Assembly: GCA_029945665.1 (NCBI GenBank)
Contig: JAQSCZ010000025.1
Location: 1 to 40,603 of the forward strand
DNA: 40,603 bases
Direction: 5' to 3'
Origin: a bacterium
GTDB lineage: Bacteria; Bacteroidota; Bacteroidia; NS11-12g; UBA955
A model generated the notes under the pieces. That model did not search any database, was not told the origin of the DNA, and saw only the letters and a program-made list of their open reading frames with translations. Position 1 is the first letter of the stretch, and each line of letters opens with the position of its first letter. This document shows positions 1,044 through 35,500 of the stretch, one piece after another. The translations under genes were made by a program, and so were the position numbers.

Positions 1044-2072
1044 CTATTTATTTTTCAAAACTACAAACTTCCAATATGTTTTGACAATTAAACCAAAAGA
1101 AACAGGCTTTAAACCTTCTTTCATATTTATTGCAGAAATATCAGCCAATCTTTTCCAGTGGTATAGTAAATCCTTGTAAGCTTTAAAAACAGTGAATGTA
1201 TTATCATAAATATGACCAGGTTCTGAACTTGCACCATTTAATTCCATTATTTTAATACAATCACCCTTTTGAAAATCCGCTAAGCTTTTTACTTTCAAAT
1301 CGAAGCGACCGTAATAAAAACCCTTAATTGGTAAACTTATTTTATTAAAAGTAGTATTCAAATCATCAGTTATTAAATGATTAAAATTAATAAAACGAGT
1401 CCCTCGGCAATGGTTGCCAATTGGCTCCAGTAAGACATTCTCGCTATCGGCAGGAACACGGTTAATGGCATCACCCATTGTTAATTTTAACCTTTCTATT
1501 TGAAATCTCGCCCTTGTAAAATTCTGCATTAATTGAAGAATACTTGACTTTCCATCTCCACGAACAGATAAAAATTCCTTAAGTGTAACAGAACTTACTT
1601 CGCCCCTTTCTGAATTTGGCAAACGACTAAAAAGTACACCAAATTCAAAATCGTAGTTAACAAACTCTTGAATAATATAGTTAAAACTAGCTCTGTTGTG
1701 GTATAGCCCTAACTCACTTTCACTGTTTATTTTACAGACATCGTTTCCTCTTTCGCCTACATCTGGCTTTGCAATTAGGGGGTAACTAATTTTATTATCT
1801 AACAGATTTGATTTTAGAATTGAGAAATCCGAATTACAAATTATATAAATACTACTTGGCAAAAATTCCTTGTCAATAAGTGATAAAATTTCCGACTTTT
1901 TTTCTCCAAAAAAACCACCTAAATCTATCCCTGGATTTGCGACACTAAAATAGGCAAATGACCTGTTTCTTATAGAAAGGAATACCCAATATGGCAGCAC
2001 AGGTAAATAAAAGAACCACCAAGGCCAATACTCATATTTAAATATTTTAAAGAAAAATAAGGGTGTTCTCAT
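1044..2072 (-). CDS. ATP-grasp superfamily protein (342 aa)
   Basis: Probable ATP-dependent carboxylate-amine (or thiol) ligase; the substrate is unknown. The stretch YPLIAKPDVGERGND (97-111, Lys102) resembles the nucleotide-binding lysine strand and flexible loop of ATP-grasp enzymes. IIQEFVNYDFEFGVLF (133-148) resembles the adenine-hinge region. YYGRFDLKVKS (253-263) and IKIMELNGASSEPGH (273-287, Glu278 and Asn280) resemble the Mg-binding end of the fold. The aromatic N-terminus (residues 5-35, WPWWFFYLPVLPYW) could contact the membrane but is not a clean signal peptide. It is the last gene of a five-gene operon, starting 3 nt after the stop of the NRDE-like gene. The family assignment rests on these motifs, not on full-length similarity; the role in the operon is unknown. 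Confidence 0.7.
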   Translation of the reverse strand: MRTPLFFFKIFKYEYWPWWFFYLPVLPYWVFLSIRNRSFAYFSVANPGIDLGGFFGEKKSEILSLIDKEFLPSSIYIICNSDFSILKSNLLDNKISYPLIAKPDVGERGNDVCKINSESELGLYHNRASFNYIIQEFVNYDFEFGVLFSRLPNSERGEVSSVTLKEFLSVRGDGKSSILQLMQNFTRARFQIERLKLTMGDAINRVPADSENVLLEPIGNHCRGTRFINFNHLITDDLNTTFNKISLPIKGFYYGRFDLKVKSLADFQKGDCIKIMELNGASSEPGHIYDNTFTVFKAYKDLLYHWKRLADISAINMKEGLKPVSFGLIVKTYWKFVVLKNK

Positions 2073-2075
2073 ACA

Positions 2076-2801
2076 TTAATTTCCAATGATTCTATTCGAA
2101 TAAAATTTTATATTGAGCAGGTCTTCATAAATCATTTCAGTTTCTATTTCAGTTTTTTTATTGATGGAACAAATACTCACTGTTTTTATTCCTGAACGGT
2201 TCATTACCATATCATTTTCGACATCACCTGAGCTACCAAAGTGATGAAACATTAAGATAGAATCTCTTGAGAAAATCTCATTTTTTTTAACCCAATTTAT
2301 AAACCCTCTTTCGCGCTGTTTAATGACATCTTCGGAATAAATTGCATTTGAAGACCAAATATGAGGGAGGGCTGGGTCGTGATTTAATAATTTTATATTT
2401 TTACCATCCCAAATAATTTCCAACAAACACAACTTTTTATTTTGTTGATGAACAATAATCAATGAGAAAGATTCGACAGTATTAAAATCATATTGTTTCA
2501 TAAAATCGTTATGATCTTTATAATTAAAAAAATCTAAAAGAGCCAACCCTCTGCTTCTCCGTTCAATCAATTTTGTTTTGGTCTTATCAAAAGCTCCGTT
2601 CAATAAACAAAGGTTAAATCCGTTGGACCCTGCCGCAATCCAGCTACCCCCGCCTTTAGGGTCTTTGGGACAATAAACGCTTACACCGTTTATTTTATAC
2701 TTATTAATTGGCACGGCAACCTCTTTTAACAAATCCACATCACGGTTACATGTCAAATTAAAACAATTTTGGTTCTGAGGGAAATAGGTTACTTTACCCA
2801 T
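2076..2801 (-). CDS. NRDE / TANGO2-like family protein (241 aa)
   Basis: Matches the NRDE (TANGO2, Ser-rich) family by pattern. An N-terminal Cys-Asn-Arg-Asp (18-21) stands where the family has NRDE. A glycine-rich GGGSWIAAGSNGF follows near 51-63, then CLLNGAF, then RRSRGLALLDFF near 82-93. These are the family's landmarks, in order. The catalytic-like N-terminal cysteine of family members is not at residue 2 here; Cys13 and Cys18 are the nearest. Biochemical function is unsettled in the family; eukaryotic TANGO2 has been linked to haem and lipid handling. Fourth gene of the operon, 5 nt after the DinB gene and 3 nt before the ATP-grasp gene. Probably cytoplasmic: no signal peptide is seen. 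Confidence 0.72.
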   Translation of the reverse strand: MGKVTYFPQNQNCFNLTCNRDVDLLKEVAVPINKYKINGVSVYCPKDPKGGGSWIAAGSNGFNLCLLNGAFDKTKTKLIERRSRGLALLDFFNYKDHNDFMKQYDFNTVESFSLIIVHQQNKKLCLLEIIWDGKNIKLLNHDPALPHIWSSNAIYSEDVIKQRERGFINWVKKNEIFSRDSILMFHHFGSSGDVENDMVMNRSGIKTVSICSINKKTEIETEMIYEDLLNIKFYSNRIIGN

Positions 2802-2806
2802 GCGTC

Positions 2807-3310
2807 TTAATTTAAAATTTTCTGAGATTCCATATACTGAATTGTGGACGCTGCATAACCAAAAGTTTTCGATAGGTTAATGTATTTTAATTCATAAGAA
2901 ATTGCAATACGGATAATAGCTAAATGGTGAACAGTATGTTCAATATTATAAGTTATTTCGCGATAAAGAGAGGATTCCATAAGAACCTCACTTTGTTCGA
3001 ATTTTGACTTCAAAAGCAAACGTTTATTAATACCCAATTGCTCTATTCGATCTATAATTTGGTCTATATAATCGGCAGCAAAGCGCGCGCTTTCTTCGAG
3101 TTTAAGATTCCTTTTCCTATCATCATAACAAACAGTCTCTTCAGTATTCGAAAAAAAGAGACATTCATAAAATTCCAATACATGCCTTACATGCCTGCCA
3201 ATGGTGCCATCTTCAAGGATACTCAAGGTCTTGGAATAGTCAGAGTCCTTCACCTGATTTAAAATTAATTTCAACTCTAACAATTGTTTTTTAGAGATTT
3301 CCTTAAGCAT
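2807..3310 (-). CDS. DinB/YfiT-family four-helix protein (167 aa)
   Basis: A helical protein with the DinB-like metal site: GRHVRHVLEF (38-47; His40, His43) in the first helices and NIEHTVHHLAIIRIA (122-136; His125, His128, His129) in the third. The family includes divalent-metal-dependent thiol transferases using bacillithiol, mycothiol or glutathione, and many uncharacterised members. Length is normal. It has no signal peptide. It starts 3 nt after the yceI-like gene and ends 5 nt before the NRDE-like gene, so it is translated from the same message. In Bacteroidota a thiol-dependent detoxification role is possible, but the sequence does not show a substrate. Confidence 0.8.
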   Translation of the reverse strand: MLKEISKKQLLELKLILNQVKDSDYSKTLSILEDGTIGRHVRHVLEFYECLFFSNTEETVCYDDRKRNLKLEESARFAADYIDQIIDRIEQLGINKRLLLKSKFEQSEVLMESSLYREITYNIEHTVHHLAIIRIAISYELKYINLSKTFGYAASTIQYMESQKILN

Positions 3311-3313
3311 AAA

Positions 3314-3865
3314 TTATTTTTTCACAACGTTTAATAGCAGTGTAAGCGTAACCTCATCTGAGAGAAACATGCTGCTTTCTCCTACACCAAAATCTAATCT
3401 ATTAATTTTAAAAGTACCCTTAAAAACACCATTGTTATCCTTTTGTACAAAACTAAACGGAACAACAATATTTTTGGTCTTTCCCTTGATGGAAAGATTA
3501 AAAAAACCTTTAAAAGTACCATTACTTTCAACACTGAATGATGTGCTTTGCATTTGAATTTTCGGGAACTTTTCGGAACTAAAATACTCATCTTTTTTAA
3601 GGTGCCCATCTCTCATGCCATTTCCTGTATTTATTGTCTTGGAATCTATCGTAGCTTCGATAGTATTACTAGTACTTTTTGTGCCATCAAAAACAACTTT
3701 TGCTGTTACTGCTCCAAATTTTCCATCCACATTAAACCCTGCATTCTTAATCTTAAAAGTTACCGAGGAAGAAACAGGTGTCCATTCCGCACTCTGTACC
3801 TCATTTTTAAAACTTGATAGTGTCAGTGAAATGGTAGCTAGGAGCGCGATAATAAATTTATTCAT
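3314..3865 (-). CDS. YceI-family periplasmic polyisoprenoid-binding protein (183 aa)
   Basis: Lipocalin-like YceI fold, expected to bind a long isoprenoid such as a quinone or polyprenyl lipid in the periplasm. An N-terminal signal peptide (MNKFIIALLATISLTLSS) is followed by the family start WTPVSSSVTFKIKNAGFNVDGKFG (about 28-51). Later family blocks are MRDGHLKKDEYFSSEKFPKI (about 83-102) and the final GVGESSMFLSDEVTLTLLL barrel strands. Length fits the family. It is the second gene of the operon, 17 nt after the beta-barrel gene, transcribed from the promoter at 4646-4653 with the palindromic operator. Its isoprenoid-binding role is notable because a UbiA prenyltransferase unit about 7 kb away has the same operator. 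Ligand identity is inferred only from the family. Confidence 0.9.
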   Translation of the reverse strand: MNKFIIALLATISLTLSSFKNEVQSAEWTPVSSSVTFKIKNAGFNVDGKFGAVTAKVVFDGTKSTSNTIEATIDSKTINTGNGMRDGHLKKDEYFSSEKFPKIQMQSTSFSVESNGTFKGFFNLSIKGKTKNIVVPFSFVQKDNNGVFKGTFKINRLDFGVGESSMFLSDEVTLTLLLNVVKK

Positions 3866-3882
3866 ATTTTTAATTCTTGATT

Positions 3883-4623
3883 TTATTTAAAAGGTGAAAA
3901 ACTAATTCCAATCATGCCCATTAAAGATTTGTTACGCCATCGGTCGTTTTCTAACCTTAATTTATTCTCAGTAGTGTATTCTGTGAATGCAAATGAGGCG
4001 CCCGCTTTAACAGCCCATCTGGTTTTAAACCAATATCTAAAATAGATTTCGGAGTTTAATGAACCTATGTCGTTATCACTAACAAGTAGTAAATTAAATG
4101 CAGTTGGCTTAGCTTTTTGCATGGTTCCATTGTCCTGCGATTGATAAGAGATGTATTGACCTGTTGTTTTTGCTCCAAACGAAAACCCCACGGCATCAAT
4201 ATTAAATCCAATATCATACTTATTCTTAATGGTGTACTGAAGATTAATACTGATATTCAAAAAATTATTCTGAGCTCTATTAACATAAAATGAATCAATG
4301 TTCTCGTTGTATATTTTTGAAAAAAGCACTTGAGGTCCCGTTTGTTTGGACGTCAGTTTTGCTGGTGCTGTTACATAATATAAATCCTTGCCTATTTGAG
4401 AACTAAAACGGATTCCATAACCAACTTTAAATTTAGCCTTTTTATTAACCGCATTAAAATGTGTCCATGACAAGGCTCCCAGCGATTGATTGCCGCTCGT
4501 AGCTAGCGCTATATCAAAATTGTTATTGAATTTATAACCCTTGGTTAAAGCTGTTGATTCTTGCGCAAAACCTTTGTTAATTATCAATAAAATGACGGTT
4601 GCTAATACTATATTTTTTTTCAT
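3883..4623 (-). CDS. Outer-membrane beta-barrel protein, unknown function (246 aa)
   Basis: Signal peptide MKKNIVLATVILLIINKGFAQ with cleavage probably after GFAQ. The remainder is alternating polar/aromatic strands (for example FNISINLQYTIKN-type stretches, FRYWFKTRWAVKAGASFAF) ending in IGISFSPFK, as in small outer-membrane porin-like barrels of Bacteroidota. I do not recognise a named family with confidence. It is the first gene of the five-gene operon with YceI, DinB, NRDE-like and ATP-grasp proteins. The predicted transcription start, about 6 nt past the -7 element at 4646-4653, leaves a leader of about 17 nt. Neighbours suggest an envelope role, perhaps partner of YceI in lipid or small-molecule traffic; this is inference. 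Confidence 0.75.
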   Translation of the reverse strand: MKKNIVLATVILLIINKGFAQESTALTKGYKFNNNFDIALATSGNQSLGALSWTHFNAVNKKAKFKVGYGIRFSSQIGKDLYYVTAPAKLTSKQTGPQVLFSKIYNENIDSFYVNRAQNNFLNISINLQYTIKNKYDIGFNIDAVGFSFGAKTTGQYISYQSQDNGTMQKAKPTAFNLLLVSDNDIGSLNSEIYFRYWFKTRWAVKAGASFAFTEYTTENKLRLENDRWRNKSLMGMIGISFSPFK

Positions 4624-4645
4624 AACTTTTACTGGTTATATGTTA

Positions 4646-4653
4646 CAAAGGTA
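4646..4653 (-). promoter_or_regulatory. Predicted -7 promoter element TACCTTTG for the YceI operon
   Basis: Minus-strand TACCTTTG fits the Bacteroidota consensus TAnnTTTG. The last G is at 4646 and the predicted start of transcription near 4640, 17 nt before the ATG at 4623. No TTG is present at the -33 position; instead a palindrome sits 21 bp upstream, as expected for an activator-dependent promoter. Confidence 0.75.
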
Positions 4654-4674
4654 TTTTACGGTTTACATTTTAAT

Positions 4675-4690
4675 TGTCGGCTGCCCGACA
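4675..4690. promoter_or_regulatory. Crp/Fnr-type operator, site 1 (TGTCGGCTGCCCGACA)
   Basis: Perfect 6-bp arms TGTCGG/CCGACA around CTGC, i.e. TGTCG-N6-CGACA. It is separated by 21 bp from the -7 element of the YceI operon, so its centre lies about 42 bp upstream of the predicted transcription start. The same motif and spacing recur at 6304-6319 and 11518-11533. The likely binder is the Crp/Fnr-family protein at 11542-12231. Confidence 0.8.
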
Positions 4691-4941
4691 TTTACAGACT
4701 ATTTTAATAATTGCAATTAATAATGAATACTTTTATTTCGCATTCAGGATATTGGTTTCCTTCTCTTCTCATTCTTTTGAATCAAAAGGCATTTTACACT
4801 TAGATTTAGTAAAGGTTAAAACGCATATTTAAATGATGGTTTAAAAGCAATATTGCCTATTCGAATCCAGAATGACTGACTTAATATTTAAATTACAAAA
4901 AAATTCCATTGGTAAAAATAGAAAAGCTAAGAAGCATGCCA
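4691..4941. other. Intergenic, no gene seen
   Basis: AT-rich spacer between the operator of the YceI operon and the 3' end of the BamA-like gene. It holds a 15-bp palindrome (CTTTTGA-A-TCAAAAG, 4774-4788) without a T-tract. I see no coding frame of interest and no clear terminator. Confidence 0.5.
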
Positions 4942-6057
4942 TTAAAATGCTTCTGCAAATATAAAGTACAGTCCTTGGGAGTCTTTTGTAACCCCATAAT
5001 CCAAGCGAATATTTGTGTTTTCCTTTTTATTAATTCGCAGTCTTAATCCAACACCAAAATTATGGTGAATCTCATTTTTCGAAAATTCCTTCACCTGTTT
5101 TGCTACCGAACCTAATCCTCCGAATGCAGCAATGCCAAACCATTTGTAAATAGGCATCCTTAATTCTTGTTGTAAAATAACCATGTTATTACCTCTAAAA
5201 CGTCCTTTATAATACCCTCTTAAAAATCTTGCACCACCTATTGTTGCCAACATTCTATATGGCACTTGACCATTATTCAAGTGTGCATATAAATTACCAT
5301 TCCAAATTACTTTTTCAAAAAGGACATTGTATTTACGAGCATCGAAAATGAAAGACTTAAAATTATAACCACTCCCAATTGATTTATCAAAATATTGAAA
5401 TGAGGTTTCAAAGTATCCCCCTTTCGCAGGATTTAATGGGTTATCTCTTTGATCATAAATTAAAATTGGACCAATACCTGAGGCAGAGTAGCCATTACCT
5501 CCAGGAATGAGCTCACAAAGCTGAGCCATTGGTTCTTTTAGTTTCATGTTAAGATTGTATAATTTTTCAAATTGATAAAAAATACCAGCATAAAAATATT
5601 TTTTTATCTGAATCAAGTTTTTGCTTCTAATTTTAAAAAGATCGAATGATATCATAATTTTGTCATGTTCTTTCGAATTGTTCGAAATGCCATAAAAATA
5701 TTCAGGATATCTTTGGTAATCCAGCCCTCCAGTGAAATAAAACTTATTGCGCTTTAACCAAATTTGATAATCGTTTTCAATAGAAAATTGCTTGTTAATG
5801 GTATAGGAAAAATAACTTTGGGCGTTCGATTTTTTACAGGCCACAGTCGCTTTACTCGCTTTAAAATAAGCGTAAACAAAGCCACCAAAACCAAAACGGG
5901 TTTCAGGTGCGTAAAAAGCAGCGGGCAAAACCCCGATTTTTGAAATAGATGTATCATTTTTCATTACGCGAGGTAGCGTATCATTTTGCGCTAGACAAGG
6001 CAGATGGCCTAAATAAATACTACAGAGAAAGTATCCTATGATTTTTAAATATTTCAT
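4942..6057 (-). CDS. BamA/TamA-family outer-membrane protein, barrel only (371 aa)
   Basis: Signal peptide MKYLKIIGYFLCSIYLGHLPCLAQ, then a 16-strand-type Omp85 (bacterial surface antigen) barrel. Typical signatures are GPILIYDQRDNPLNPAKGGYF (about 197-217), IGGARFLRGYYKGRFRGNN (about 273-291) and a C-terminal strand ending in Phe. At 371 residues it has no room for POTRA domains, so it is a short Omp85-like barrel rather than BamA itself. Such proteins are common and mostly uncharacterised in Bacteroidota. It is a single-gene unit. A possible minus-strand TAATTTTG at 6254-6261 would give a leader of about 190 nt, and the operator at 6304-6319 would lie about 63 bp upstream of that start. Membership in the regulon is therefore possible but less certain than for the other three units. 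Confidence 0.85.
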   Translation of the reverse strand: MKYLKIIGYFLCSIYLGHLPCLAQNDTLPRVMKNDTSISKIGVLPAAFYAPETRFGFGGFVYAYFKASKATVACKKSNAQSYFSYTINKQFSIENDYQIWLKRNKFYFTGGLDYQRYPEYFYGISNNSKEHDKIMISFDLFKIRSKNLIQIKKYFYAGIFYQFEKLYNLNMKLKEPMAQLCELIPGGNGYSASGIGPILIYDQRDNPLNPAKGGYFETSFQYFDKSIGSGYNFKSFIFDARKYNVLFEKVIWNGNLYAHLNNGQVPYRMLATIGGARFLRGYYKGRFRGNNMVILQQELRMPIYKWFGIAAFGGLGSVAKQVKEFSKNEIHHNFGVGLRLRINKKENTNIRLDYGVTKDSQGLYFIFAEAF

Positions 6058-6253
6058 TGTGCGGCTTGTGGTTGTAGTTTATTACAAGGTCAAAGATTTA
6101 AAATAAAATGGTCCATTTCTTCTATAGGTGCTGAGCTCGTTGTATTAAAACTGACACTGATTCAATTTAGCCACATAAAAACATAAATGTATTATAAGGC
6201 ATAAGCTGATTGTGATAATTTTAGTTGGATCTAATTTTAAACTAAAAACTTTT

Positions 6254-6261
6254 CAAAATTA
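6254..6261 (-). promoter_or_regulatory. Possible -7 element TAATTTTG for the BamA-like gene
   Basis: Fits TAnnTTTG on the minus strand. The shared operator centre (6311.5) is 57.5 bp from its last G, about -63 from the predicted start, near the class I position of Crp-type activators. The long 5' leader it implies lowers confidence. Confidence 0.35.
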
Positions 6262-6303
6262 AAGCTTAGTAAGACAAAGATAATTTTATAAAATTTTTCA
6301 AAA

Positions 6304-6319
6304 AGTCGGCTAGGCGACA
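6304..6319. promoter_or_regulatory. Crp/Fnr-type operator, site 2 (AGTCGGCTAGGCGACA)
   Basis: One end base differs from TGTCG-N6-CGACA; the arms GTCG/CGAC are perfect. It lies in the divergent region between the BamA-like gene and the Omp28-like gene. It is exactly 21 bp upstream of TAATTTTG at 6341-6348 on the plus strand, the same spacing as at sites 1 and 3. Confidence 0.75.
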
Positions 6320-6340
6320 ATTGCTAGAAAATAATTCTGC

Positions 6341-6348
6341 TAATTTTG
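6341..6348 (+). promoter_or_regulatory. Predicted -7 promoter element TAATTTTG for the Omp28-like gene
   Basis: Fits TAnnTTTG. A TTG at 6321-6323 lies 17 nt upstream and could serve as a -33 element. The predicted start of transcription is near 6354, leaving about 73 nt to the ATG at 6427. Confidence 0.7.
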
Positions 6349-6426
6349 TTTATTATTAACTCATTAATTGTTTTAATAAAGCATTTTAATTCCATTGTAA
6401 AAAATAAAAAAACATCCAACTTATTT

Positions 6427-7434
6427 ATGAAAAATCTATTTAATCTTTTCCTCACATGCCTTGTTTCAATTCAAGTATTACAGGCGCAAGTACCTAAAAA
6501 AATTGTTGTTGAGCATTTTACAAACACCAATTGCAGTGTATGTGCATCTAGAAACCCTGGATTTTACACCAATTTTAACAATCAAAACAATGTCATTCAT
6601 TTAGCAATCCATCCCAGTTCTCCGTATGCTTCTTGTGTTTTAAGTAAGCACAATGCTGCTGAGAATGATGGACGAACAAATTATTATGGCATTTATGGCG
6701 CTACGCCGCGGATAGTGATTCAAGGAGTTGTTGTTTCAAGTGGCTCAAATTATAGCTCTGCTACCATTTTTACCCCCTATTTAGATCAAACTTCACCTGC
6801 AAGCATTAAAATATATCAGACAAAATATGGCAAAGATTCTATTCATTCAAGAATTGTTGTAAAAACAGAAGCATCCCATACATTAACTAGTTTGCGTTTA
6901 TTTGTTGCATTAGTTGAGGACACCTTAAATTATACGGGTTCTAATGGTGAACCTAGCCATTTTGATGTGTTCCGTAAATCTTTAACAGGCACTTCTGGGG
7001 TAACTGTAACCTTACCCTCCAAAGTTGGCGATTCTTTGGTTTACAACTTCTCTTCTGCAGCCAATGGGGTGTGGAATTTTTCAAGAATATATACTTTGGC
7101 TATTTTGCAAGATGCAGCAACCAAATCTGTCATTCAAAGTGAAAACATAGCGACCAAAATTAATAAAGTAGCGACAAGTCTTCAAAACACATTACCAAAT
7201 GACTTATATTCCAATATCTACTTTTATGAGCACACAATATTTGTCGACATCGAAAAAATACATGAGCATTTGAACTTTGAAATTTATGATATTTCAGGGA
7301 GAAAAATATTGGAGAAAAATATTGAATCAAATCGCGAACAGTTGAATGTTGCCAGCATGTCACCAGGCGTTTATCTTTACCTTATAAAATCGGATAATGG
7401 ATTCATAAAAACTGGAAAAATTCTTATTAACTAG
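6427..7434 (+). CDS. Omp28-like secreted protein with T9SS sorting domain (335 aa)
   Basis: An upstream in-frame TTG at 6346 would add 27 residues, but it overlaps the predicted -7 element. The ATG at 6427 gives a proper signal peptide (MKNLFNLFLTCLVSIQVLQAQ), so I choose it. The mature N-terminus has a thioredoxin-like Omp28 motif: VVEHFTNTNCSVCASRNP with a CxxC pair, then YYGIYGATPRIVIQG around the usual cis-Pro. The last ~75 residues form a type A T9SS C-terminal domain (IYDISGRKILEKN, then SPGVYLYLIKSDNG, ending KTGKILIN). The product should therefore cross the outer membrane through the SprA channel encoded at 32574-39836 and be released or anchored at the surface. Monocistronic, with its own operator-controlled promoter. 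Redox or adhesive function is unproven. Confidence 0.85.
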   Translation: MKNLFNLFLTCLVSIQVLQAQVPKKIVVEHFTNTNCSVCASRNPGFYTNFNNQNNVIHLAIHPSSPYASCVLSKHNAAENDGRTNYYGIYGATPRIVIQGVVVSSGSNYSSATIFTPYLDQTSPASIKIYQTKYGKDSIHSRIVVKTEASHTLTSLRLFVALVEDTLNYTGSNGEPSHFDVFRKSLTGTSGVTVTLPSKVGDSLVYNFSSAANGVWNFSRIYTLAILQDAATKSVIQSENIATKINKVATSLQNTLPNDLYSNIYFYEHTIFVDIEKIHEHLNFEIYDISGRKILEKNIESNREQLNVASMSPGVYLYLIKSDNGFIKTGKILIN

Positions 7435-7462
7435 TCTTAGAGATTTCTTTTAATTAAATCTA

Positions 7463-8587
7463 TCAAAATCGCTGCCCATGGGTTAAGGCAATTAGTTTTT
7501 GAAGAAGTCTTGGTGAAGTTTGCAATAACTTAAGCGTTAGGTGTGTTATTTGATTTTGACCCAAAAGTTTTTGCAAATAATAACCAGCTTTGATGCGTTT
7601 CTCAAAGTTCTGATTCCACTTGGGTTGGTATAAATAAATTGCTTCAGGTTTCGAGATTTCCAATTGCAAATACAGGTTTAAAATAGGGGCCAATAGATAC
7701 GAAGCCCGCATCGCCATACTCATTCCATTGCCGCATAATGGAGCAATGGCTCCTGCAGCATCGCCCAACAAAAAAACACCATTGGCGTATGAGGCCTTTT
7801 TATTGAAAGTAACTTGACTAATAGTCAATGGTTTTTCATATAAGAATTTTGAATCTTGAAATATCGCTTTTAAATATGGGTTTTTGTATAAGATATTCTC
7901 TTCGAGTTGCTTTATATTATTATTGCTATTGTTTAAATTTTTGGCAGTAGTCAAATAGCATAAACAATAGGTATCATTGTCAACTTTTGATATACCACAA
8001 TAACCATCTTTAAAATTGTGCAATTCAATTCGATTGTCGGCTAGTTTTGTTTTGATATGATACTTAACACCTATGTAATTTGTGGATTGCAGATCTAATG
8101 CCTTTTCAATAAACTTAGGATTGTGTCTTCCATAACTACCGCAAACAACCTTTGAACCAAATTGGCCATTTGAGGTTTCAATTAAAGAACCACCTTCAAC
8201 TTTTTCAACGTTATTTACTTTGCAATTCTGCAAAACTTTAACACCATTTTTTTCAGCAATTTTCAATAATTCAGAATCTAATGTAAAACGACTGATTCCA
8301 AACCCACCCATTTTAAGTGGAGCTTCGAGCATAAATCCTTTGGTAGATGAAACACCCAATTGATTTATTTGTGGTAAATTCATGCCAGATAATGGCAAGC
8401 CAAGACCTTCCAAAAAACTCCAACTCTCATTGGATATATACTCACCACACACCTTATGAAAGGGGTATTCATTCTTTTCAAATAATACAACAGAATGTTG
8501 GAGCTTTGCCATTTGAATGGCCAAACACAAGCCTGCCAAACCTCCACCAATAATGGCACAATCATATTTATTTAATTCATTCACCAT
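7463..8587 (-). CDS. FAD-dependent oxidoreductase of the polyketide unit (374 aa)
   Basis: Class A flavoprotein of the geranylgeranyl-reductase / aromatic-hydroxylase type. An N-terminal Rossmann motif AIIGGGLAGLCLA binds the FAD adenosine phosphate, and KVCGEYIS near residue 45 is typical of the reductase branch. The second FAD motif GVFLLGDAAGAIAPLCGNGM lies near 270-290. It may hydroxylate the polyketide ring to a hydroquinone/quinone or reduce an isoprenoid chain. Start: ATG at 8587 (MVNELNKYD) overlaps the methyltransferase gene by 11 nt; an ATG at 8602 adds five residues (MKLLF) and is possible. It is the last gene of UbiA-PKS-MT-FAD, ends convergent with the Omp28-like gene 28 bp away, and has no strong terminator. 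The gene order PKS-methyltransferase-flavoprotein resembles srsABC of Streptomyces griseus (phenolic lipid quinones). Confidence 0.85.
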   Translation of the reverse strand: MVNELNKYDCAIIGGGLAGLCLAIQMAKLQHSVVLFEKNEYPFHKVCGEYISNESWSFLEGLGLPLSGMNLPQINQLGVSSTKGFMLEAPLKMGGFGISRFTLDSELLKIAEKNGVKVLQNCKVNNVEKVEGGSLIETSNGQFGSKVVCGSYGRHNPKFIEKALDLQSTNYIGVKYHIKTKLADNRIELHNFKDGYCGISKVDNDTYCLCYLTTAKNLNNSNNNIKQLEENILYKNPYLKAIFQDSKFLYEKPLTISQVTFNKKASYANGVFLLGDAAGAIAPLCGNGMSMAMRASYLLAPILNLYLQLEISKPEAIYLYQPKWNQNFEKRIKAGYYLQKLLGQNQITHLTLKLLQTSPRLLQKLIALTHGQRF

Positions 8588-9269
8588 AAACAATAACTTC
8601 ATGCCTGAAGGCCCATTTGCCAGTCACAGAATATTTTTTTGCTTTTGAATGCACAAGCATCAATTCCCATTCACGTTTTTTAAAACCTCTTAATACCGAC
8701 AAGGGTGCATCGTTTTTTACCAAATACGACTTTGAAAATAATGCAGTTAATATTTTTATTGCAAAATAAGCGATAGGGTTACGCTCAAGATCATTTACAA
8801 TGAGTGTAATTTTATTTAACACGCAAAATTCAATCAACTCAGCTATTTCATTTTCGCTTAGATGGTGACAAAATAAACTGGCGTGGATGACATCGACTTT
8901 AGGTATATAATCTAAAATACTTCTGTAATCATCACATATAAAAGTGATTTCAGTATTATTGTTTTCTAAAGAATAATCAACACAAGTTTGCTTTAAGTCA
9001 ATCCCATAAAGTTTTAAGTCCAAATTCCGTTTTAAACTCCATTTTTGTATTTGCTTTAAGGTATCTCCTCCTCCACTTCCAATGTCTACTAAAACAATTG
9101 TCTGCTTACCATGGAGCACTTTTTTTAAAGCATCAAATGTTATTTTATAACCGCCTAACCAATTATTGATGGTGTTCAGTTCATATAAATTTCTATAAAG
9201 ATCAGCCTGAGGTATAATGTCCCCATCTAATAGTTCTTTCTTATGCGACCTTTGTTTAAACATATTCAA
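8577..9269 (-). CDS. Class I SAM-dependent methyltransferase of the polyketide unit (230 aa)
   Basis: Rossmann-fold methyltransferase. Motif I is VLVDIGSGGGDTL (about 59-71), motif II the acidic LYGIDLK near 88-94, then CDDYRSI, and VDVIHASLFCHHL as motif IV/post-IV. Expected to O- or C-methylate the polyketide product of the neighbouring PKS. Start ATG at 9269 (MNMFKQRS) or 9263. It overlaps the PKS stop by 14 nt and the FAD gene start by 11 nt, so translation is coupled. It is a soluble class I enzyme. As far as I recall, SrsB, the methyltransferase in the analogous Streptomyces unit, is an integral-membrane ICMT-type enzyme; the resemblance is thus of gene order and logic rather than orthology. 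C-terminal half GKWAFRHEVIVYGE is short and basic. Confidence 0.85.
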   Translation of the reverse strand: MNMFKQRSHKKELLDGDIIPQADLYRNLYELNTINNWLGGYKITFDALKKVLHGKQTIVLVDIGSGGGDTLKQIQKWSLKRNLDLKLYGIDLKQTCVDYSLENNNTEITFICDDYRSILDYIPKVDVIHASLFCHHLSENEIAELIEFCVLNKITLIVNDLERNPIAYFAIKILTALFSKSYLVKNDAPLSVLRGFKKREWELMLVHSKAKKYSVTGKWAFRHEVIVYGE

Positions 9270-10344
9270 GTTGCATTGTTTCGATACTTAACCCCGGACC
9301 AAAAGCGGCTGTAAATATTTTTCTACCAAAAGGATTCGTTTTGTTCATTTCTATGACCTGCTTTAAAACAAACAAAACTGTGGGAGAAGACATGTTTCCA
9401 AAATTGTTAAGAACATCATAAGACTGTTGCAATTGTTCCTTTGATAAATCAAGCGATTTTCTAAAATCGTCTAATATTTTTTTACCTCCTGGATGTACCG
9501 CCCAAAAATCTACATCTTTACTATTTACGCCAATAGAATCGAATAGTTCCTTTATACTGCCGTTAATTAATTGAGAAACATACGAGGTTAAATTAATTAC
9601 AAAGCCTTTATCTGAAATATGCCAAGCCATCTCATCTACCCCTTTGTGCAACAAATTAGAATGAAAGGCCTTTATCTCAATGGCTGGGTAGTATGGCGGC
9701 TTGGGCCTTGAACTACTCACGATCATAGCAGCACTGCCATCGCCAAACAAAGCAGTTGATATGATATAGTCGTCGCTATATTTTTTTTGAAAGTGAATGG
9801 TAGATAGCTCAGTGCATACGATAAGTACATTCGCCTTAGGGTTTGTTTTACAAATATAGTCTGCGTTTTTTAATGCTAAAATGGCGGCATTACAACCCAT
9901 AAAATTAACACTATTTCTTTCAATTTTTGGATTTAGTCCCAATTCTCTAACAATCTCAATATCTAATCCTGGAGCTGAAAGTCCGGTGCAAGTAACCGTA
10001 ATAATATGGGTAATAGAATGCTTGATAGATTCAAAATCTATGATTTTTTTAATTGCATCAATGGATAAAGTGCAAGCATGTTTTTTAAATAAATCCATTC
10101 TTTCACTAATACTAGGCTCAGGTTCTAAAAATCTATTTTTAGGAAAAAATTCAAAATCAGCCGCATCCTTACTAAAATCATTTAATACAGAATAGCGTGT
10201 TTTTATGGATGCTCGCGATGCAACAGTTGTTATTTTCCGTTTGATATTTTCATCGTCTGTTGAATTTCGATAAAAATTCGCAATGGTATCCTGCGTATGC
10301 TTAAACTCAGGAACAGCCGTTTGAATATCAATAATATAGCTCAA
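9256..10344 (-). CDS. Type III polyketide synthase, chalcone/alkylresorcinol synthase-like (362 aa)
   Basis: Homodimeric ketosynthase that extends an acyl-CoA starter with malonyl-type units and cyclises it to a resorcinol, pyrone or acylphloroglucinol. All catalytic residues are present: Cys151 in NFMGCNAA, His284 in WAVHPGGKK, Asn317 in NNFGNMSSPT. The family loop GFGPG appears as AFGPG (347-351). Length is normal. Lower-eukaryote- and bacteria-type motifs (TVTCTGLSAPGLDIE, 117-130) favour the bacterial alkylresorcinol/alkylpyrone group over plant CHS, but starter and product cannot be read from sequence. It starts 1 nt after the UbiA stop and overlaps the methyltransferase by 14 nt: second gene of the operon driven from 11489-11496. 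Confidence 0.95.
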   Translation of the reverse strand: MSYIIDIQTAVPEFKHTQDTIANFYRNSTDDENIKRKITTVASRASIKTRYSVLNDFSKDAADFEFFPKNRFLEPEPSISERMDLFKKHACTLSIDAIKKIIDFESIKHSITHIITVTCTGLSAPGLDIEIVRELGLNPKIERNSVNFMGCNAAILALKNADYICKTNPKANVLIVCTELSTIHFQKKYSDDYIISTALFGDGSAAMIVSSSRPKPPYYPAIEIKAFHSNLLHKGVDEMAWHISDKGFVINLTSYVSQLINGSIKELFDSIGVNSKDVDFWAVHPGGKKILDDFRKSLDLSKEQLQQSYDVLNNFGNMSSPTVLFVLKQVIEMNKTNPFGRKIFTAAFGPGLSIETMQLEYV

Positions 10345-10345
10345 A

Positions 10346-11263
10346 TTAAAACTTCAAATAGATAAATAAAAGGAAACATGAATTCATGCAAACAGCCGCA
10401 ATTAGATTCATCCGCATTGTGTTTTTAAAACTAGCTTCCGCTTTGTTTTTATTTACTCTTATAGCCCAATACAAAAAATAAAAAACTATGGGTAGAAAAA
10501 ATACCTGGAGTATATAGAATAAATGACTGTTGTTGTTTTGTATAAAATAGAAATAGTAAAAAACATTACACAGTGCAAACATAACAGCTGTGAAAATAAA
10601 CGTTCCCTTGTATCCTAATTGATAACTTAAGGTTATTACACCATCTTTTAAATCCTCCTGGTGCTGATAAATTTGGGTAAGTGGGTATGCTCCGGCTATT
10701 TGCAGTGAACAAGCCAACATAATAAGTGAATTGGCATAGGAAAGATCAAAAGGCAAATCTGAAATTCCAACTGTACTCATAAAGAATGTAAATCCCCCTT
10801 GAAATACAACAACAGTAAGAAAACCAAGAAGCGGATACTTTTTTAATCGTATCTGTTTTGAACTGTACATTCTGGATGCTATGATATAAATAAAAATACT
10901 GGCCGAAAAAAGCCATTTTACAAAAATTAGCGACAAGCCAACCGCTAAAATATCCAGCATTAAAGTAACGTAAAATAAGTGCTCCGTTGGCATTGGAGGC
11001 TTCTCCAAACCTCCGATACTGCCCTCATCTCGATCAATATAACTATTATAACCATTGCTAGCAGGGTATACTAAAAAATGAATAATGAAAAAGGACCAAA
11101 TGGTTGTTTTTAAATTTAATTGACTTGCCTGTCCGATGGCTAACAAAAAAACAGGCATTAACAATAAAGAAAATGGTATCCGAAGAAGTTTAATCGTATT
11201 CTTAACTGTCATCAATAAGCTGTGATGTGGTGATTCATTGCTGTTTTTTACGGTGTGACTCAT
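10346..11263 (-). CDS. UbiA-family prenyltransferase (305 aa)
   Basis: Polytopic membrane enzyme (about eight hydrophobic segments from residue 24 on). The first Asp-rich prenyl-diphosphate/Mg site is NGYNSYIDRDEGS (about 69-81, fitting NxxxDxxD). The second is YQHQEDLKDGVITLSYQLG (about 202-220), matching the UbiA DxxxD-G-x-TL pattern. It would attach an isoprenoid chain to an aromatic acceptor. As first main gene of the unit with a type III PKS, a methyltransferase and a flavoprotein, the acceptor is probably the polyketide ring; a role in ordinary menaquinone or haem A synthesis is less likely here. Predicted message start near 11483 leaves a leader of about 220 nt that contains a possible 43-codon ORF. 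PKS starts 1 nt downstream. Confidence 0.9.
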   Translation of the reverse strand: MSHTVKNSNESPHHSLLMTVKNTIKLLRIPFSLLLMPVFLLAIGQASQLNLKTTIWSFFIIHFLVYPASNGYNSYIDRDEGSIGGLEKPPMPTEHLFYVTLMLDILAVGLSLIFVKWLFSASIFIYIIASRMYSSKQIRLKKYPLLGFLTVVVFQGGFTFFMSTVGISDLPFDLSYANSLIMLACSLQIAGAYPLTQIYQHQEDLKDGVITLSYQLGYKGTFIFTAVMFALCNVFYYFYFIQNNNSHLFYILQVFFLPIVFYFLYWAIRVNKNKAEASFKNTMRMNLIAAVCMNSCFLLFIYLKF

Positions 11264-11347
11264 AACTTAATCAGAATAAGGTTAACATATAAATCCAATA
11301 TTAGTTCACAATTGCATTTGCATTCTATGATGAACATTGTATAATAT

Positions 11348-11479
11348 TTAATAACCATTCTCATTCGCTAGGTATGAATTTGATGATTCCAATTCCAAAA
11401 CTTGATTGGATACCAGATTATTTCTAATAAATTCAACTAGGCCTTTGAAGGCTAAAAAAAAATGGAAGCATAAAGTCAT
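11348..11479 (-). CDS. Possible small leader protein (43 aa) of the polyketide operon
   Basis: An ATG at 11479 opens a 43-codon frame ending TAA at 11348-11350. The protein begins MTLCFHFFLAFKGLVEF and ends NSYLANENGY: a hydrophobic start and a polar Asn/Ser/Glu tail. The ATG is only 9 nt beyond the last G of the activator-controlled -7 element (11489), so the message would be nearly leaderless. It fills much of the otherwise long leader upstream of the UbiA gene (84 nt from its stop to the UbiA ATG). No family is recognised. A chance frame in AT-rich DNA is possible. Confidence 0.35.
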   Translation of the reverse strand: MTLCFHFFLAFKGLVEFIRNNLVSNQVLELESSNSYLANENGY

Positions 11480-11488
11480 TTTGTAATA

Positions 11489-11496
11489 CAAAAGTA
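11489..11496 (-). promoter_or_regulatory. Predicted -7 promoter element TACTTTTG for the UbiA-PKS operon
   Basis: Minus-strand match to TAnnTTTG located by applying the spacing seen at the other two operators. Last G at 11489, predicted start near 11483. The 21-bp spacer to the operator contains TTTG at other phases but no well-placed -33 element. Confidence 0.75.
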
Positions 11497-11517
11497 AATA
11501 ACAAATAGTTTTCAAAC

Positions 11518-11533
11518 TGTCAGCTACACGACA
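11518..11533. promoter_or_regulatory. Crp/Fnr-type operator, site 3 (TGTCAGCTACACGACA)
   Basis: TGTCA-N6-CGACA, the third copy of the palindrome, in the region between the regulator gene (stop at 11542) and the UbiA operon. It is 21 bp upstream of TACTTTTG on the minus strand, the same distance as sites 1 and 2. It matches the site I recall for the CO sensor CooA (TGTCA-N6-CGACA). Confidence 0.8.
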
Positions 11534-11541
11534 TTTGAGAA

Positions 11542-12231
11542 CTATAAACTATCGATGTTAGGAATAATCACCTTTTTGCGTCCTTCATAAATAATTTTAC
11601 CTTCATCTACTAATTTATTGACAATACTTGTTACAGATTGTCTGGATGATGCTGTGTAATCCGCAATTTCTTGATGTGTAAGCATCATCTCCATTTCTAA
11701 CATACCATTCACAACTTTCGCATGGTAGCTCGCATAGCGCTTAAAAAATTCGACAACTCTAGTATTAACATCTTTAAAAACTAAATCCGAATATTTTTGC
11801 TGTAACGAACCCAATTTCTCATTGATTAATAGCGAATATTTAATACTCAAATCCTGATTATTTCTCAAAACGGATTTGAAATCCTCAACGGCAAAACTAC
11901 AAATACTGAGCTTTTTACTGAGCACCACGGCATATTCCTCTTTTATTCTATTATCTGAGCTATTCAGACTGATGTAGCCAAAAATATCATTTTCAGTGAG
12001 AATTTCAGTAATGACTTCCTTTCCTTCATTATTCTGATGACAAATTTTTAGTATACCATGTTTAATCGTATAAAGTCTTTTCTTATCTGAATCTGAAAAG
12101 AAAATAATATCATTTTTATCTCCTTGCTTGAAACTAGACATAATGCAAAGTGCGTCAACATCCTTTTCTGACAATTGATCAAACAATTTGTGACTCTTTA
12201 GATACCAATATTTTATCTCTTCTTTCATCAT
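11542..12231 (-). CDS. Crp/Fnr-family transcriptional regulator (229 aa)
   Basis: N-terminal cyclic-nucleotide-binding-type beta-roll (about 15-115), dimer helix (about 125-160) and C-terminal winged helix. The HTH is LTHQEIADYTASSRQSVTSI (184-203), and R197-Q198 align with Arg180-Glu181 of E. coli CRP. The recognition helix SSRQSVTSIVNKL closely resembles CooA's SSRQTTSTALNSL as I recall it, in keeping with the TGTCR/CGACA half-sites found in the block. It lacks the FNR cysteine cluster (only Cys29, 64, 111), has no obvious cAMP-binding Arg-Ser signature, and shows no CooA-type haem ligands I can assign, so the signal is unknown. Two adjacent ATGs (12231, 12228); the first overlaps the LysE-family stop by 4 nt. 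No operator was found upstream of the lysE-regulator pair, so autoregulation is not evident. Confidence 0.9.
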   Translation of the reverse strand: MMKEEIKYWYLKSHKLFDQLSEKDVDALCIMSSFKQGDKNDIIFFSDSDKKRLYTIKHGILKICHQNNEGKEVITEILTENDIFGYISLNSSDNRIKEEYAVVLSKKLSICSFAVEDFKSVLRNNQDLSIKYSLLINEKLGSLQQKYSDLVFKDVNTRVVEFFKRYASYHAKVVNGMLEMEMMLTHQEIADYTASSRQSVTSIVNKLVDEGKIIYEGRKKVIIPNIDSL

Positions 12232-12860
12232 AATTTTATCAGCTGCTGTATAGCAATAGCTATGAAGAGAATGCTTAATACTTTGTAATAGTATTTATTA
12301 TTTATGTATTTCAAAACTTTTTCTTTAAATCGATCAATGGTTATAATTATCAAAAGCAATAGGCAAAAAGCACCAAAACCAGCCCCAAAGATATACGCTA
12401 ATTTTTCAATTTCGGATTTTAATATTAAAAATTTAATAGAATTAAAATACACCATCACAAACATCCAATAAGGCAATAATTGAGGGTTTAATCCTGCCAA
12501 TGCAAATCCTTTCATGAAATGCTGACTTTTAGATCCTTCAACCCGAATGTGCAATGATTGTAACTCAACTGGTTTGTGTTTTTTAAAAAAATAGATAACC
12601 CCAACTGTAAAAAGCAAGATGATTAACAAAATTTTGAAGACTAGAAAAAAGCCAGGATTGTTGATAAAATAGGATCCGCAATAGACTGCCAATCCACAAT
12701 AGATAAATTCAGGTATTACGCCTCCAAATGCGACCCAATAAGCATTTGTTCTATTTTTATTTAATGCTGTATTTATAACGAAAATATTGACAGGACCAAG
12801 CTGCAAAGAGCCAATAAAACTAGCCAAAACAGACGCTAAAAAAATTAAAATAAAATTCAC
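12228..12860 (-). CDS. LysE/RhtB-family membrane exporter (210 aa)
   Basis: Six hydrophobic segments and the family N-terminus ASFIGSLQLGPVNIFVINTALNKN (about 14-37), with the conserved Gly-Pro turn, then GGVIPEFIYCGLAVYCG. LysE proteins export amino acids or small metabolites; the substrate here is unknown. Start is GTG at 12860; a TGA lies two codons upstream in frame, and no other good start precedes the first membrane segment. The -7 element TATATTTG (12865-12872) ends only 4 nt before this GTG, so translation may be leaderless. It overlaps the Crp/Fnr regulator by ATGA and forms a two-gene operon with it. Confidence 0.85.
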   Translation of the reverse strand: MNFILIFLASVLASFIGSLQLGPVNIFVINTALNKNRTNAYWVAFGGVIPEFIYCGLAVYCGSYFINNPGFFLVFKILLIILLFTVGVIYFFKKHKPVELQSLHIRVEGSKSQHFMKGFALAGLNPQLLPYWMFVMVYFNSIKFLILKSEIEKLAYIFGAGFGAFCLLLLIIITIDRFKEKVLKYINNKYYYKVLSILFIAIAIQQLIKL

Positions 12861-32377: not shown

Positions 32378-32573
32378 GAAATAGTTCAAACCCTTTGTAC
32401 CTATGCCTTCGAGGACTTCTATTTTTGTCATTTTTTTTTGACATATGCAATAAAATTATAGTAAACATTGTTATATTCGCACTTTACACCTAATAATAAA
32501 GCCTATAGAATCTAGCATTTACACAAAAAATTTAGTATTGTCGTTTTCAAATAAAATAATTGTAGTGAATTCT

Positions 32574-35500
32574 ATGCAACGTATTCAGGGGCTTTGGGAT
32601 GCAAGGCTTCTTGTGCTTTTACTTTCTGCATTCGCTTTTCCTCTGTTTAGCATATCTGGGTACCAAAGGTCTGTTTCCTTTGGCTATATCCCTACAGATG
32701 AAGAACTCAGTGCCGATGTTTTAAAAAACAATAAAAAAACAATTCCAAGCACCGCAAAAAAAACAAAAGTTAATTCAGCCATTAAAAAAGTGGCGCCACA
32801 ATCTCCTTTCTTTTCGCCTCAAGATTCAACAAAAAATACAGGAAAAGACTCGCTAGTCCTAAAATATCCAGTCAAACAAAATACAGGCAGGGGCACCTCC
32901 GATTATCAAAACAACATAGACCTGAACGACCCTTCTGTTAAAACACTTGTTGAGTATAATACAAGCACTGGTATGTATGACGAATACCGTGTGGTGGCAG
33001 GCAAAAAAACCCTTACCCGGTCCTTAACAAAGGATGAGTATATGGAAGAAAGCGCCCGCGCAGAGCGAAAAAGATATTTCGAACAAAGAAGTAAAAGTAA
33101 TGCTGGTGGCAGTGGATACAACAACAACAAAAAAATTGATTTAATAAAAACCCCACCAGTCATCGATAAGATTTTTAGAGGTGGTTTGATTGATATTCGC
33201 CCTAGTGGGTCGGCAGAATTAACTTTTGGAGGCAATTTTAATACCGTTAGAAATCCGATGTTCAGCGCACGTCAGCAAAAAACTGGACAATTTAATTTTG
33301 ATCAAAAAATACAAATTAACGTTACCGGCAAAATTGGTAATGCCTTAAATCTTGGCATAAAATACGATACTGATGCAACCTTCGATTTTGACAATCAAAC
33401 CAAATTAGATTGGGTAGGTAAAGAAGATCAAATTGTTCAAAAAATAGAATTGGGAAATGTGAGTTTGCCTTTGAACGGTAGTTTAATTCAAGCTGGGCAA
33501 TCCCTATTTGGCATCAAGGCAGGCTTAAAATTTGGCCGATTAAAAGTAACTGCTATAGCTACTCAAAACAAAGGACAACGCACCGAAACAACGGTAAATG
33601 GTGGCGCTCAAATAACCAACTTCAATATTCAGGCTCACAACTACGACCAGAACAGACACTATTTCCTTTGTCAGCAATTTAAAGACAATTTTGATGTGGC
33701 GATGTCTAGTCTGCCATTAATATCTTCTGGCGTTGTTATTAATCGTGTAGAGGTTTGGGTAACCAACAGAAGTGGTAGTTATGATAACACACGCGATTTA
33801 TTGGCTTGTATGGACTTAGGTGAAAAAACGCCTTACAATAGCTCCATCACTACTGGTGCTAGTTTAGGTGCCGATAACAATTCAAATAATTTATATACTA
33901 CTTTACTTTCCTCTAATAATATCCGAACATCTAAGACCTGTTTAGATGAAATGAATAGATTACCTGGAACTCAAAATCTAAAACAAGGTCTAGATTATGA
34001 ATTATTGACTTACGCCAGACAATTGACCGAGCAGGAATTTAGTTTTAATTCTCGTTTGGGTTACATTTCCTTAAACTCATCTTTAAATAACGATGAGATA
34101 TTGGCGGTTGCTTTCGAATACACATTGAATGGCAAGGCGTATAAAGTTGGTGAATTTGCTTCTGAAATTGTCAGCGACAGAGCCAATAGCAAAGTATTAA
34201 TGGTAAAAATGCTGAAAGGCAACATCATTCGCACACGCCTACCAATGTGGGAATTGATGATGAAAAATATTTATTCTTTGGGTTCATTCAATATCAATAC
34301 TTCCGATCTAAAATTTGACATTATTTACAATGATGATCCTTCTGGGGCAGATTTAAATTACCTCCCTGTTAGCAATATTCCAGGCTTAAGCGATGGTATC
34401 CCCTTAATCCGTGTGATGAACATGGACCGTATCAACCGTCAGCAAGAAGCAAAACCCGATGGCGTTTTCGATGCCATTGATGGTATTACCTTCCAATCAC
34501 AACAAGGCCGTGTTATATTTCCAGTGTTGCAGCCATTTGGCAACCATCTAAGAAGCAAGTTCCCGCTATCCGACCCAATTGCAAACAAGTATGTTTTTGA
34601 TGCTTTGTACGACAGTACGAAATGGTTAGCCGAACAAGATGTCGTTCACAATAAATTCTTTTTAAAAGGAAGTTTCAAAGGAAATAGCAGCGCCGACATT
34701 TCTTTAAATGCACTGAATGTCCCCCAAGGCTCGGTAATTGTAACAGCCAATGGAACCAAGCTTACAGAGAATGTAGATTATACTGTCGATTACAATGCTG
34801 GAAAGGTTACCATTATCAATCAAGGCATCTTACAATCGGGGGCTATTATTAAAGTTTCAGCCGAAAGTAATAGCATGTTCAATATTCAACAAAAAACTTT
34901 GCTCGGTGCGCGATTCGATTACAATGCCCATAAGAAATTACTGTTAGGTGGCACAATCCTTCACATGTATGAACGCCCTTTAACACCTAAAACTAATATA
35001 GGGGATGAACCCCTGTTGAATACCATTATGGGTGCAGACTTTAGCTATGCATCGCCCTCTCAATTGCTCACAAAATTAGTCGATAAACTGCCATTTATAG
35101 AAACTAAAGTACTCAGTAAATTAACCGCACAAGGCGAGTATGCGCGTATTTTTCCGGGTAAAGCTAAGGGACAAAATAACACCCGTGGTGTAAGTTATTT
35201 GGATGACTTCGAGGGCGCAGAAACTACCTTCGATTTAAAATTAAGTTCAAATTGGAAAATGGCCAGTTTGCCACAATATCAAAAAGATTTATTCCCTGAA
35301 TGGGACTTAGCATTACAAAACAAGCGTCCTTGGGGCTTTCAAAGAGCGCGTTTGGCCTGGTACACCATCGATCCTACTTTTTACAGAAACGACCCATACA
35401 CGCCTACACACATTAAAAACGATGTGCAAATGCAGAGCAATCACTACATGAGAGAAGTATTGGTTACCGAAGTATTCCCCAATAAACAAATTCAGCAAGG

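Follow-up and report, generated by a model that had tools for sequence, protein, structure and literature searches.

CooA senses CO with haem and drives the genes of CO oxidation, and two other members of the Crp/Fnr group, CRP and FNR, read half-sites of the form TGTGA and TTGAT, respectively; at class II promoters of this family, the activator is centred at -41.5. The system described here lies in a 40,603-bp stretch of DNA from a member of the Bacteroidota (contig JAQSCZ010000025.1 of assembly GCA_029945665.1; "the window" means this whole stretch), where palindromes at four promoters are probably operators of a Crp/Fnr-family protein encoded beside them. It resembles the class II promoters of Escherichia coli CRP and FNR in the Crp/Fnr domains of the protein and in the palindrome centre at -41.5, but the half-site is TGTCR, the promoter box is TAnnTTTG, a tyrosine takes the place of the glutamate of the cAMP pocket, and the four-cysteine set of FNR is missing. 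The SSRQ recognition helix and the TGTC-N8-GACA site are the same as those of CooA from Rhodospirillum rubrum and relatives (accessible part of PMC7306483), whereas the targets of the window regulator would be envelope and redox genes.

Two further systems are related by the genes under control. BcnA-LcoA, the lipid peroxyl radical system of Burkholderia, likewise contains a YceI lipocalin with an antioxidant role in the envelope, and binding of tocopherol and isoprenoid quinones has been reported for it; in its accessible part, this account (PMC9113575) mentions neither a Crp-type regulator nor a polyketide synthase (PKS) operon, unlike the window block. The hidABC genes, alkylresorcinol-type operons of Planctomycetota, likewise combine a type III PKS, a methyltransferase, and an FAD oxidoreductase (PMC10896814, accessible text), whereas the window operon is led by UbiA and has a geranylgeranyl-reductase-like enzyme and a Crp operator. 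No earlier description of the regulon or of the motif in Bacteroidota was found in a search of the open-access literature; within the literature searched, the regulon is undescribed so far, the Crp/Fnr class II promoter type itself being already known.

Operators, promoter spacing and the regulator

The sequence-only reading of the window had described three promoters that share one palindromic operator, each followed after 21 bp by a TAnnTTTG element, and had assigned them to the neighbouring Crp/Fnr gene. Direct inspection of the sequence bore out the positions of the three palindromes and the three boxes, and the gap between palindrome and box, in the direction of the gene, is identical for all three pairs. 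The three promoters stand, but three is too low as a total: at palindrome 2, a second -7 box lies 21 bp away on the other side and faces the divergent Omp85-like open reading frame (ORF), a fourth promoter that had been overlooked. All four promoters with operator and box at 21 bp are found inside one 6.9-kb stretch. The operator centre had been placed at about -42; the class II position holds, and since the TAnnTTTG box of sigma-A promoters in Flavobacterium psychrophilum spans -12 to -5 (accessible part of PMC9723704), a 21-bp gap puts the centre at -41.5, a value for which the box position is borrowed from that species. No copy of the motif had been seen in other intergenic regions of the window, and the three-site consensus, at up to three mismatches, matches nowhere else in it; it gives six strand-wise matches where 0.59 are expected, and none of 100 shuffles reached six. 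Palindromes with up to one mismatch number 16 strand-wise in the window, four of them with a TAnnTTTG box within 8-40 bp, in each case at 21 bp.

This spacing was followed in 53 loci (949,359 bases) that were chosen for a Crp homologue and not for the motif, namely 37 of 52 places that a search of the class gave outside the window, three from searches of the same genus and order, and 13 of 21 further loci, the other eight being omitted as duplicates or a fragment. A palindrome with up to one mismatch is followed by TWnnTTTG 32 times at 21 bp and zero to two times at each other spacing from 8 to 40 bp. The exact TGTCN8GACA palindrome occurs 33 times in the same loci, against 2 to 27 times for ten rearranged control palindromes, and, thus, the signal is carried by the 21-bp spacing more than by the palindrome alone. 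Together with the window, these loci yield an alignment of 36 sites, in which the inner T of the palindrome is kept in 30, the promoter-proximal half is better conserved, and the predicted +1 is an A, which was not selected for, in 26; a clear -33 TTG was not seen in the 36 sites. Boxes on both sides of the operator are present at three of the 33 operator places of the loci and the window.

The window regulator combines a beta roll of the cNMP-binding type with a Crp helix-turn-helix, both recognized by Pfam above cut-off, which places it in the Crp/Fnr superfamily. It has three cysteines in all, at positions 29, 64, and 111, and not the four of the FNR cluster; Cys111 is the only one within the stretch compared with FNR, and it aligns with an FNR cysteine that we take to be a cluster ligand. 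In the column of the cAMP-pocket glutamate, presumably E72 of the phosphate-binding cassette in E. coli CRP numbering, the window protein has Tyr86 where CRP has Glu, a residue found in 36 of 54 sequences (the 53 loci plus the window), and the Arg-Ser pair of CRP has no counterpart opposite it in the alignment, in a stretch that contains gaps. CooA alone among PDB entries matches the DNA-binding part at E <= 0.01. Both proteins have Ser-Arg-Gln at the recognition helix, where CRP has Arg-Glu and FNR Val-Glu, and the Arg is present in 54 and the Gln in 53 of the 54 Crp sequences. As TGTC-N8-GACA is the consensus site of CooA (PMC7306483, accessible part), the Arg-Gln helix and the site, both of which are found in the window, provide an independent link between protein and palindrome.

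A second Crp clade, with an LW(H/Y)LE N-terminus, without Cys29 and with the same Arg-Gln helix, was observed at L134:10152, L138:9071, and L140:10144 (here and below, G, C, and L numbers denote genomes, contigs, and loci). A 21-bp site precedes its own gene, which suggests autoregulation in that clade.

A scan of the genome with TGTCG-N6-CGACA had been proposed as a check; at up to one mismatch, 18 places were found in 3.79 Mb, versus 68 for a reversed control pattern, and the sole perfect copy is site 1. With the composite TGTCN8GACA-N21-TAnnTTTG at up to one mismatch, five places remain in the genome, four of which are the window promoters. Matches at up to two mismatches came near the control and were dropped as further targets; 26 of the 37 that lie outside the window were inspected, 21 being within mechanically called ORFs and five intergenic. 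Only an operon on contig C50 was retained, because its site recurs in two relatives. An intergenic match on C125 (TGACAATCTTATGACA, one mismatch to the composite) was not retained, as it has no conserved core.

The region on C50 (C50:3626-5743 of G000; L068, L145) encodes a Crp paralogue that is 34 % identical to the window regulator. Ten bases after this gene stands TGTAAAGCAGCCGACA, followed after 21 bp by TTATTTTG, and downstream of it are YHS-like, DoxX-like, and DinB-like genes, with Pfam matches below cut-off or absent. Both layout and site are kept in two genomes of the same genus (L017, L018). This operon, overlooked earlier, is a probable further target of the regulon.

Conservation of the block and co-occurrence with the regulator

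G331, G401, G148, G357, and G156 each encode a close orthologue of the regulator (56 to 62 % identity), and a further one is present in a metagenome-assembled genome of Fluviicola (L175). More distant regulators, approximately 36-37 % identical to that of the window, occur in Flavobacterium luteum (L188) and Flavobacterium aquariorum (L189), each with a 21-bp operator close to crp. The block of LysE-Crp, UbiA-PKS-methyltransferase-FAD, Omp28/peroxiredoxin/Omp85, and YceI operon recurs whole or piecewise in relatives. When the upstream regions of orthologous units were compared, as had been advised, the operators proved to keep their place in as many as four further genomes. A site 21 bp from a box precedes genes of the YceI operon in G331, G401, G148, and G459; in the first three, one position of the box differs from TAnnTTTG, and the G401 palindrome also has one mismatch. 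The two-way layout of the window, a single operator flanked by two full boxes, is also found in G401 and G148, where it lies between the Omp28 gene and a divergent peroxiredoxin-Omp85 pair; G459 shows it with a gap of 21 bp towards peroxiredoxin and of 20 bp towards Omp28. Across the four-way alignment of the Omp28 intergenic region (97 columns), both boxes are invariant at all six defined positions and the operator at 11 of 16, so that boxes and operator account for 23 of the 36 invariant columns. The peroxiredoxin gene is absent from its expected place in the window, and no match turned up when a remnant of it was sought in the interval from operator 2 to the Omp85-like gene. Another two-way operator was seen in G473 (L151:1530); one of its neighbours is a Pyr_redox_2 oxidoreductase, the other a 292-aa protein that has no Pfam match.

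The UbiA-PKS-methyltransferase operon is common across the class, in which 78 of 395 genomes have a UbiA homologue. Among the best 30 of 79 UbiA matches, which do not include lower-ranked Crp-positive genomes such as G401, G341, and G464, an operator stands at the UbiA operon in five of six loci from Crp-positive genomes and in none of 24 others; thus, the operator is not intrinsic to the UbiA operon. In G331 and G148, the site precedes DM13 or a YceI-DM13 pair ahead of UbiA, and in G156, it precedes DM13. The window has a 225-bp leader of the UbiA operon at 11264-11488, and the DM13 gene or YceI-DM13 pair that follows the operator in relatives is absent here.

Across the class, the exact composite (TWnnTTTG being accepted as box) was matched 33 times, in 26 of the 395 genomes, and the reversed control 10 times. 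The composite is found in 17 of 48 Crp-positive genomes (homologue at 1e-28) versus 9 of 347 others (Fisher p = 2e-11; p = 1e-10 after dropping the window's own genome). Comparative evidence supports, as was first proposed, a local regulon whose class II operator would be read by the neighbouring Crp/Fnr protein, because the spacing is exact, the operators keep orthologous positions, the operator tracks crp, and the recognition helix is CooA-like. In G137, a Crp homologue that is 28 % identical lies between two outward-facing composite sites (C40:2154-3268; L156, L231).

Neither in the 16 other genomes of the same genus nor in the 108 genomes of the order that were searched does any match to the window Crp exceed 34 %. 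Since its nearest relatives are in other families, the block (1044-12860) may have been acquired horizontally.

Proposed mechanism, signal and role

We consider it probable, at roughly 0.8, that the palindromes are operators of the Crp/Fnr protein encoded at 11542-12231, which would activate the four window promoters in the class II manner and serve an envelope oxidative-stress role, with a related operator on C50; binding, activation, and the oxidative role are what we infer from sequence. The regulator would bind TGTCR-N6-YGACA as a dimer centred at -41.5 and recruit RNA polymerase with the primary sigma factor of Bacteroidota to promoters with a TAnnTTTG box and no clear -33 element. The units controlled in this way would be the YceI operon, the Omp28-like gene, the divergent Omp85-like gene, and the UbiA/type III PKS operon, the Omp28-like and Omp85-like promoters being served from one shared operator. 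The C50 operon of YHS-like, DoxX-like, and DinB-like genes, with its related operator beside a second Crp, could be a further target. The regulon would most likely serve to repair and shield envelope proteins and lipids when the cell is under oxidative stress.

Several observations weigh against this model. In the own genome, the composite at up to two mismatches is found 41 times versus 32 for the reversed control, little over background, and no operator precedes lysE-crp in the window, so that autoregulation is unsupported here. The exact composite is missing from 31 of the 48 Crp-positive genomes, and nine genomes have it without a homologue at 1e-28, four of them, including G137, with a homologue at 1e-10 and five with none. 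One of the genomes without any homologue at 1e-10 is G237, where both exact composite sites precede MsrB and MsrA; these sites, thus, are not ascribable to a regulator of the window type. At the UbiA operon, the box has one mismatch in G331 and G357, and in G220, which is Crp-positive, this operon has no operator. Finally, three operator places persist in G459, where crp is cut at the locus to approximately its last 31 codons and the best other homologue of the regulator is a 26 % match. The crp remnant (L198:1-760) adjoins unrelated sequence; crp may have been lost recently or broken by an insertion, the assembly may have joined separate sequences, or another protein may serve the operators.

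The last of these would agree with a different view of the whole system, in which the operators are read by a different protein that shares the recognition helix, for instance the paralogue on C50, and the local Crp is minor or cross-talking. That paralogue carries the Arg-Gln helix as well, with a 21-bp site of its own (TGTAAAGCAGCCGACA), and the operators kept in G459 and the composite sites of G237 are in keeping with such a reader, but the presence of an operator at the UbiA operon tracks a close crp, and the paralogue also occurs in two genomes of the same genus that have no window-type Crp; we regard this view as unlikely. Repression, in which the protein bound over -49 to -34 would block polymerase until a signal frees the DNA, seems less likely still: the operator extends into the -33 region and the activating sign is itself a prediction, but repressor sites vary in position at Crp/Fnr promoters, whereas the rigid 21-bp spacing is expected for contact with polymerase, and a -33 TTG is not clearly conserved. 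That the palindromes arose by chance in AT-rich intergenic DNA is of negligible probability; the window sites are few and the genome scan is near background at two mismatches, but the shuffle test, the histogram of spacings, the class-wide counts, the co-occurrence with Crp, the orthologous conservation, and the UbiA-operon comparison all speak against it.

The least certain part of the model of activation by the local Crp is its signal. Thiol oxidation through Cys111 and Cys29 is our preferred guess, held at somewhat less than an even chance; Cys111 is found in 53 of 54 sequences and Cys29 in 35 of 54, mostly in those with a YWYL N-terminus. Light, CO/NO, or a lipid ligand could be the signal instead, which would be compatible with the operator model and likewise falls a little short of evens. 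UbiA, PKS, and YceI hint at lipids or pigments, and CooA, with the same DNA code, is a haem sensor; on the other side stand the near-constant Cys111, aligned with an FNR cysteine, and the presence of thiol and methionine repair enzymes among the targets elsewhere, and for light in particular, the NCBIfam model of LdrP scores 36 bits versus a cut-off of 300. A light regulon of the LitR type had been the first idea, from UbiA, PKS, YceI, and Crp together; no open-access literature linking them was found and the LdrP model failed, so that light is kept as a rival signal only.

For the content of the regulon, the sites with 21-bp spacing from the 53 Crp-homologue loci were pooled with loci found by the motif, which gave 56 sites after removal of duplicates. 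Four of these have no downstream ORF under the rule used, and of the 52 downstream proteins, 20 were compared with Pfam at first and three more later. YceI, YHS-like, AhpC/TSA peroxiredoxin, MsrB, MsrA, DM13, thioredoxin, and Omp28-like proteins lie behind the sites, the YHS matches being partly below the Pfam cut-off, and chance probably accounts for some of the class-wide sites. Four sites belong to Msr genes: L166 (MsrA) in the Crp-positive genome G284, L146 and L171 in G237, and L167 in G110, whose only matches are 24-25 % identical. In G103, MsrB is within a YHS-DoxX operon that adjoins crp, and the operator there has a poor box (GAACTTTG). YceI lipocalins protect Burkholderia against lipid peroxyl radicals (accessible part of PMC9113575), and this role, together with the gene content behind the sites, suggests an envelope oxidative-stress regulon. 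As a guess, the product of the PKS operon would be a prenylated phenolic antioxidant. A fuller picture, which is speculative and rather improbable as a whole, is that a thiol-redox Crp with the DNA code of CooA and without the FNR cluster cysteines might run an inducible antioxidant programme of the envelope that makes its own lipid antioxidant, a tocopherol-like prenylated phenolic from the UbiA, PKS, methyltransferase, and geranylgeranyl-reductase-like enzymes, carried by YceI and backed by peroxiredoxin and Msr, with one operator serving two opposed class II promoters.

The regulon would be defined from DNA for Crp/Fnr homologues that are present in 48 of the 395 sampled genomes of the class, and it ties poorly understood envelope families (YceI, YHS-like, DM13, DinB-like, Omp28, and type III PKS/UbiA) to one likely stress response. 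The pattern TGTCR-N6-YGACA-N21-TAnnTTTG is specific enough for finding more members by genome scan. The two-way operator is a compact case in which one palindrome could serve two class II promoters, and, if the redox signal is true, a thiol-sensing branch would be added to the Crp/Fnr family.

Features of the block

The coordinates of the operators, boxes, and genes are collected in Table 1. Operator 3 lies 8 bp past the stop codon of crp. The Omp28-like protein had been labelled as exported by the type IX secretion system (T9SS); its T9SS sorting domain is above the Pfam gathering score, its Omp28 match below. The N-terminus of the 241-aa protein of the YceI operon may resemble that of TANGO2/NRDE proteins.

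Table 1. Operators, promoter boxes and genes of the block, in window coordinates.
Feature	Position	Strand	Remarks
Operator 1	4675..4690	-	TGTCGGGCAGCCGACA in gene direction; upstream of YceI operon
-7 box of operator 1	4646..4653	-	TACCTTTG; 21 bp from operator 1
Operator 2	6304..6319	.	AGTCGGCTAGGCGACA; common to two divergent promoters
-7 box of Omp28-like gene	6341..6348	+	TAATTTTG
-7 box towards Omp85-like gene	6275..6282	-	TATCTTTG; defined positions invariant in four-way alignment
Operator 3	11518..11533	-	TGTCGTGTAGCTGACA in gene direction; upstream of UbiA/type III PKS operon
-7 box of operator 3	11489..11496	-	TACTTTTG; 21 bp from operator 3
Crp/Fnr-family regulator, 229 aa, proposed activator	11542..12231	-	Pfam cNMP_binding and HTH_Crp_2 above cut-off
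LysE-type translocator, overlaps crp	12228..12860	-	Adjoins crp also in L106-L109 and L175
Probable outer-membrane barrel protein, 246 aa, first gene of YceI operon	3883..4623	-	Sub-threshold Pfam OMP_b-brl_2, E 0.015
YceI-family lipocalin	3314..3865	-	Pfam E 7.3e-31
DinB-like protein, 167 aa	2807..3310	-	Sub-threshold Pfam; resembles a protein of the C50 operon
YceI-operon protein, 241 aa	2076..2801	-	No Pfam or NCBIfam match; relatives near crp in several loci
ATP-grasp-like protein, 342 aa, YceI operon	1044..2072	-	Weak NCBIfam matches far under cut-off
Omp85-family outer-membrane protein	4942..6057	-	Pfam E 5.9e-9; putative target of the minus promoter of operator 2
Omp28-like protein with T9SS sorting domain	6427..7434	+	Pfam (Omp28 below gathering score)
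UbiA-family prenyltransferase	10346..11263	-	Pfam E 3.9e-19
Type III polyketide synthase	9256..10344	-	Best NCBIfam match DpgA, below its cut-off
Methyltransferase	8577..9269	-	Domain search
FAD-dependent oxidoreductase	7463..8602	-	Best NCBIfam match geranylgeranyl-reductase family, below its cut-off

Elsewhere in the window, an ORF of 2432 aa extends over 32538-39836.

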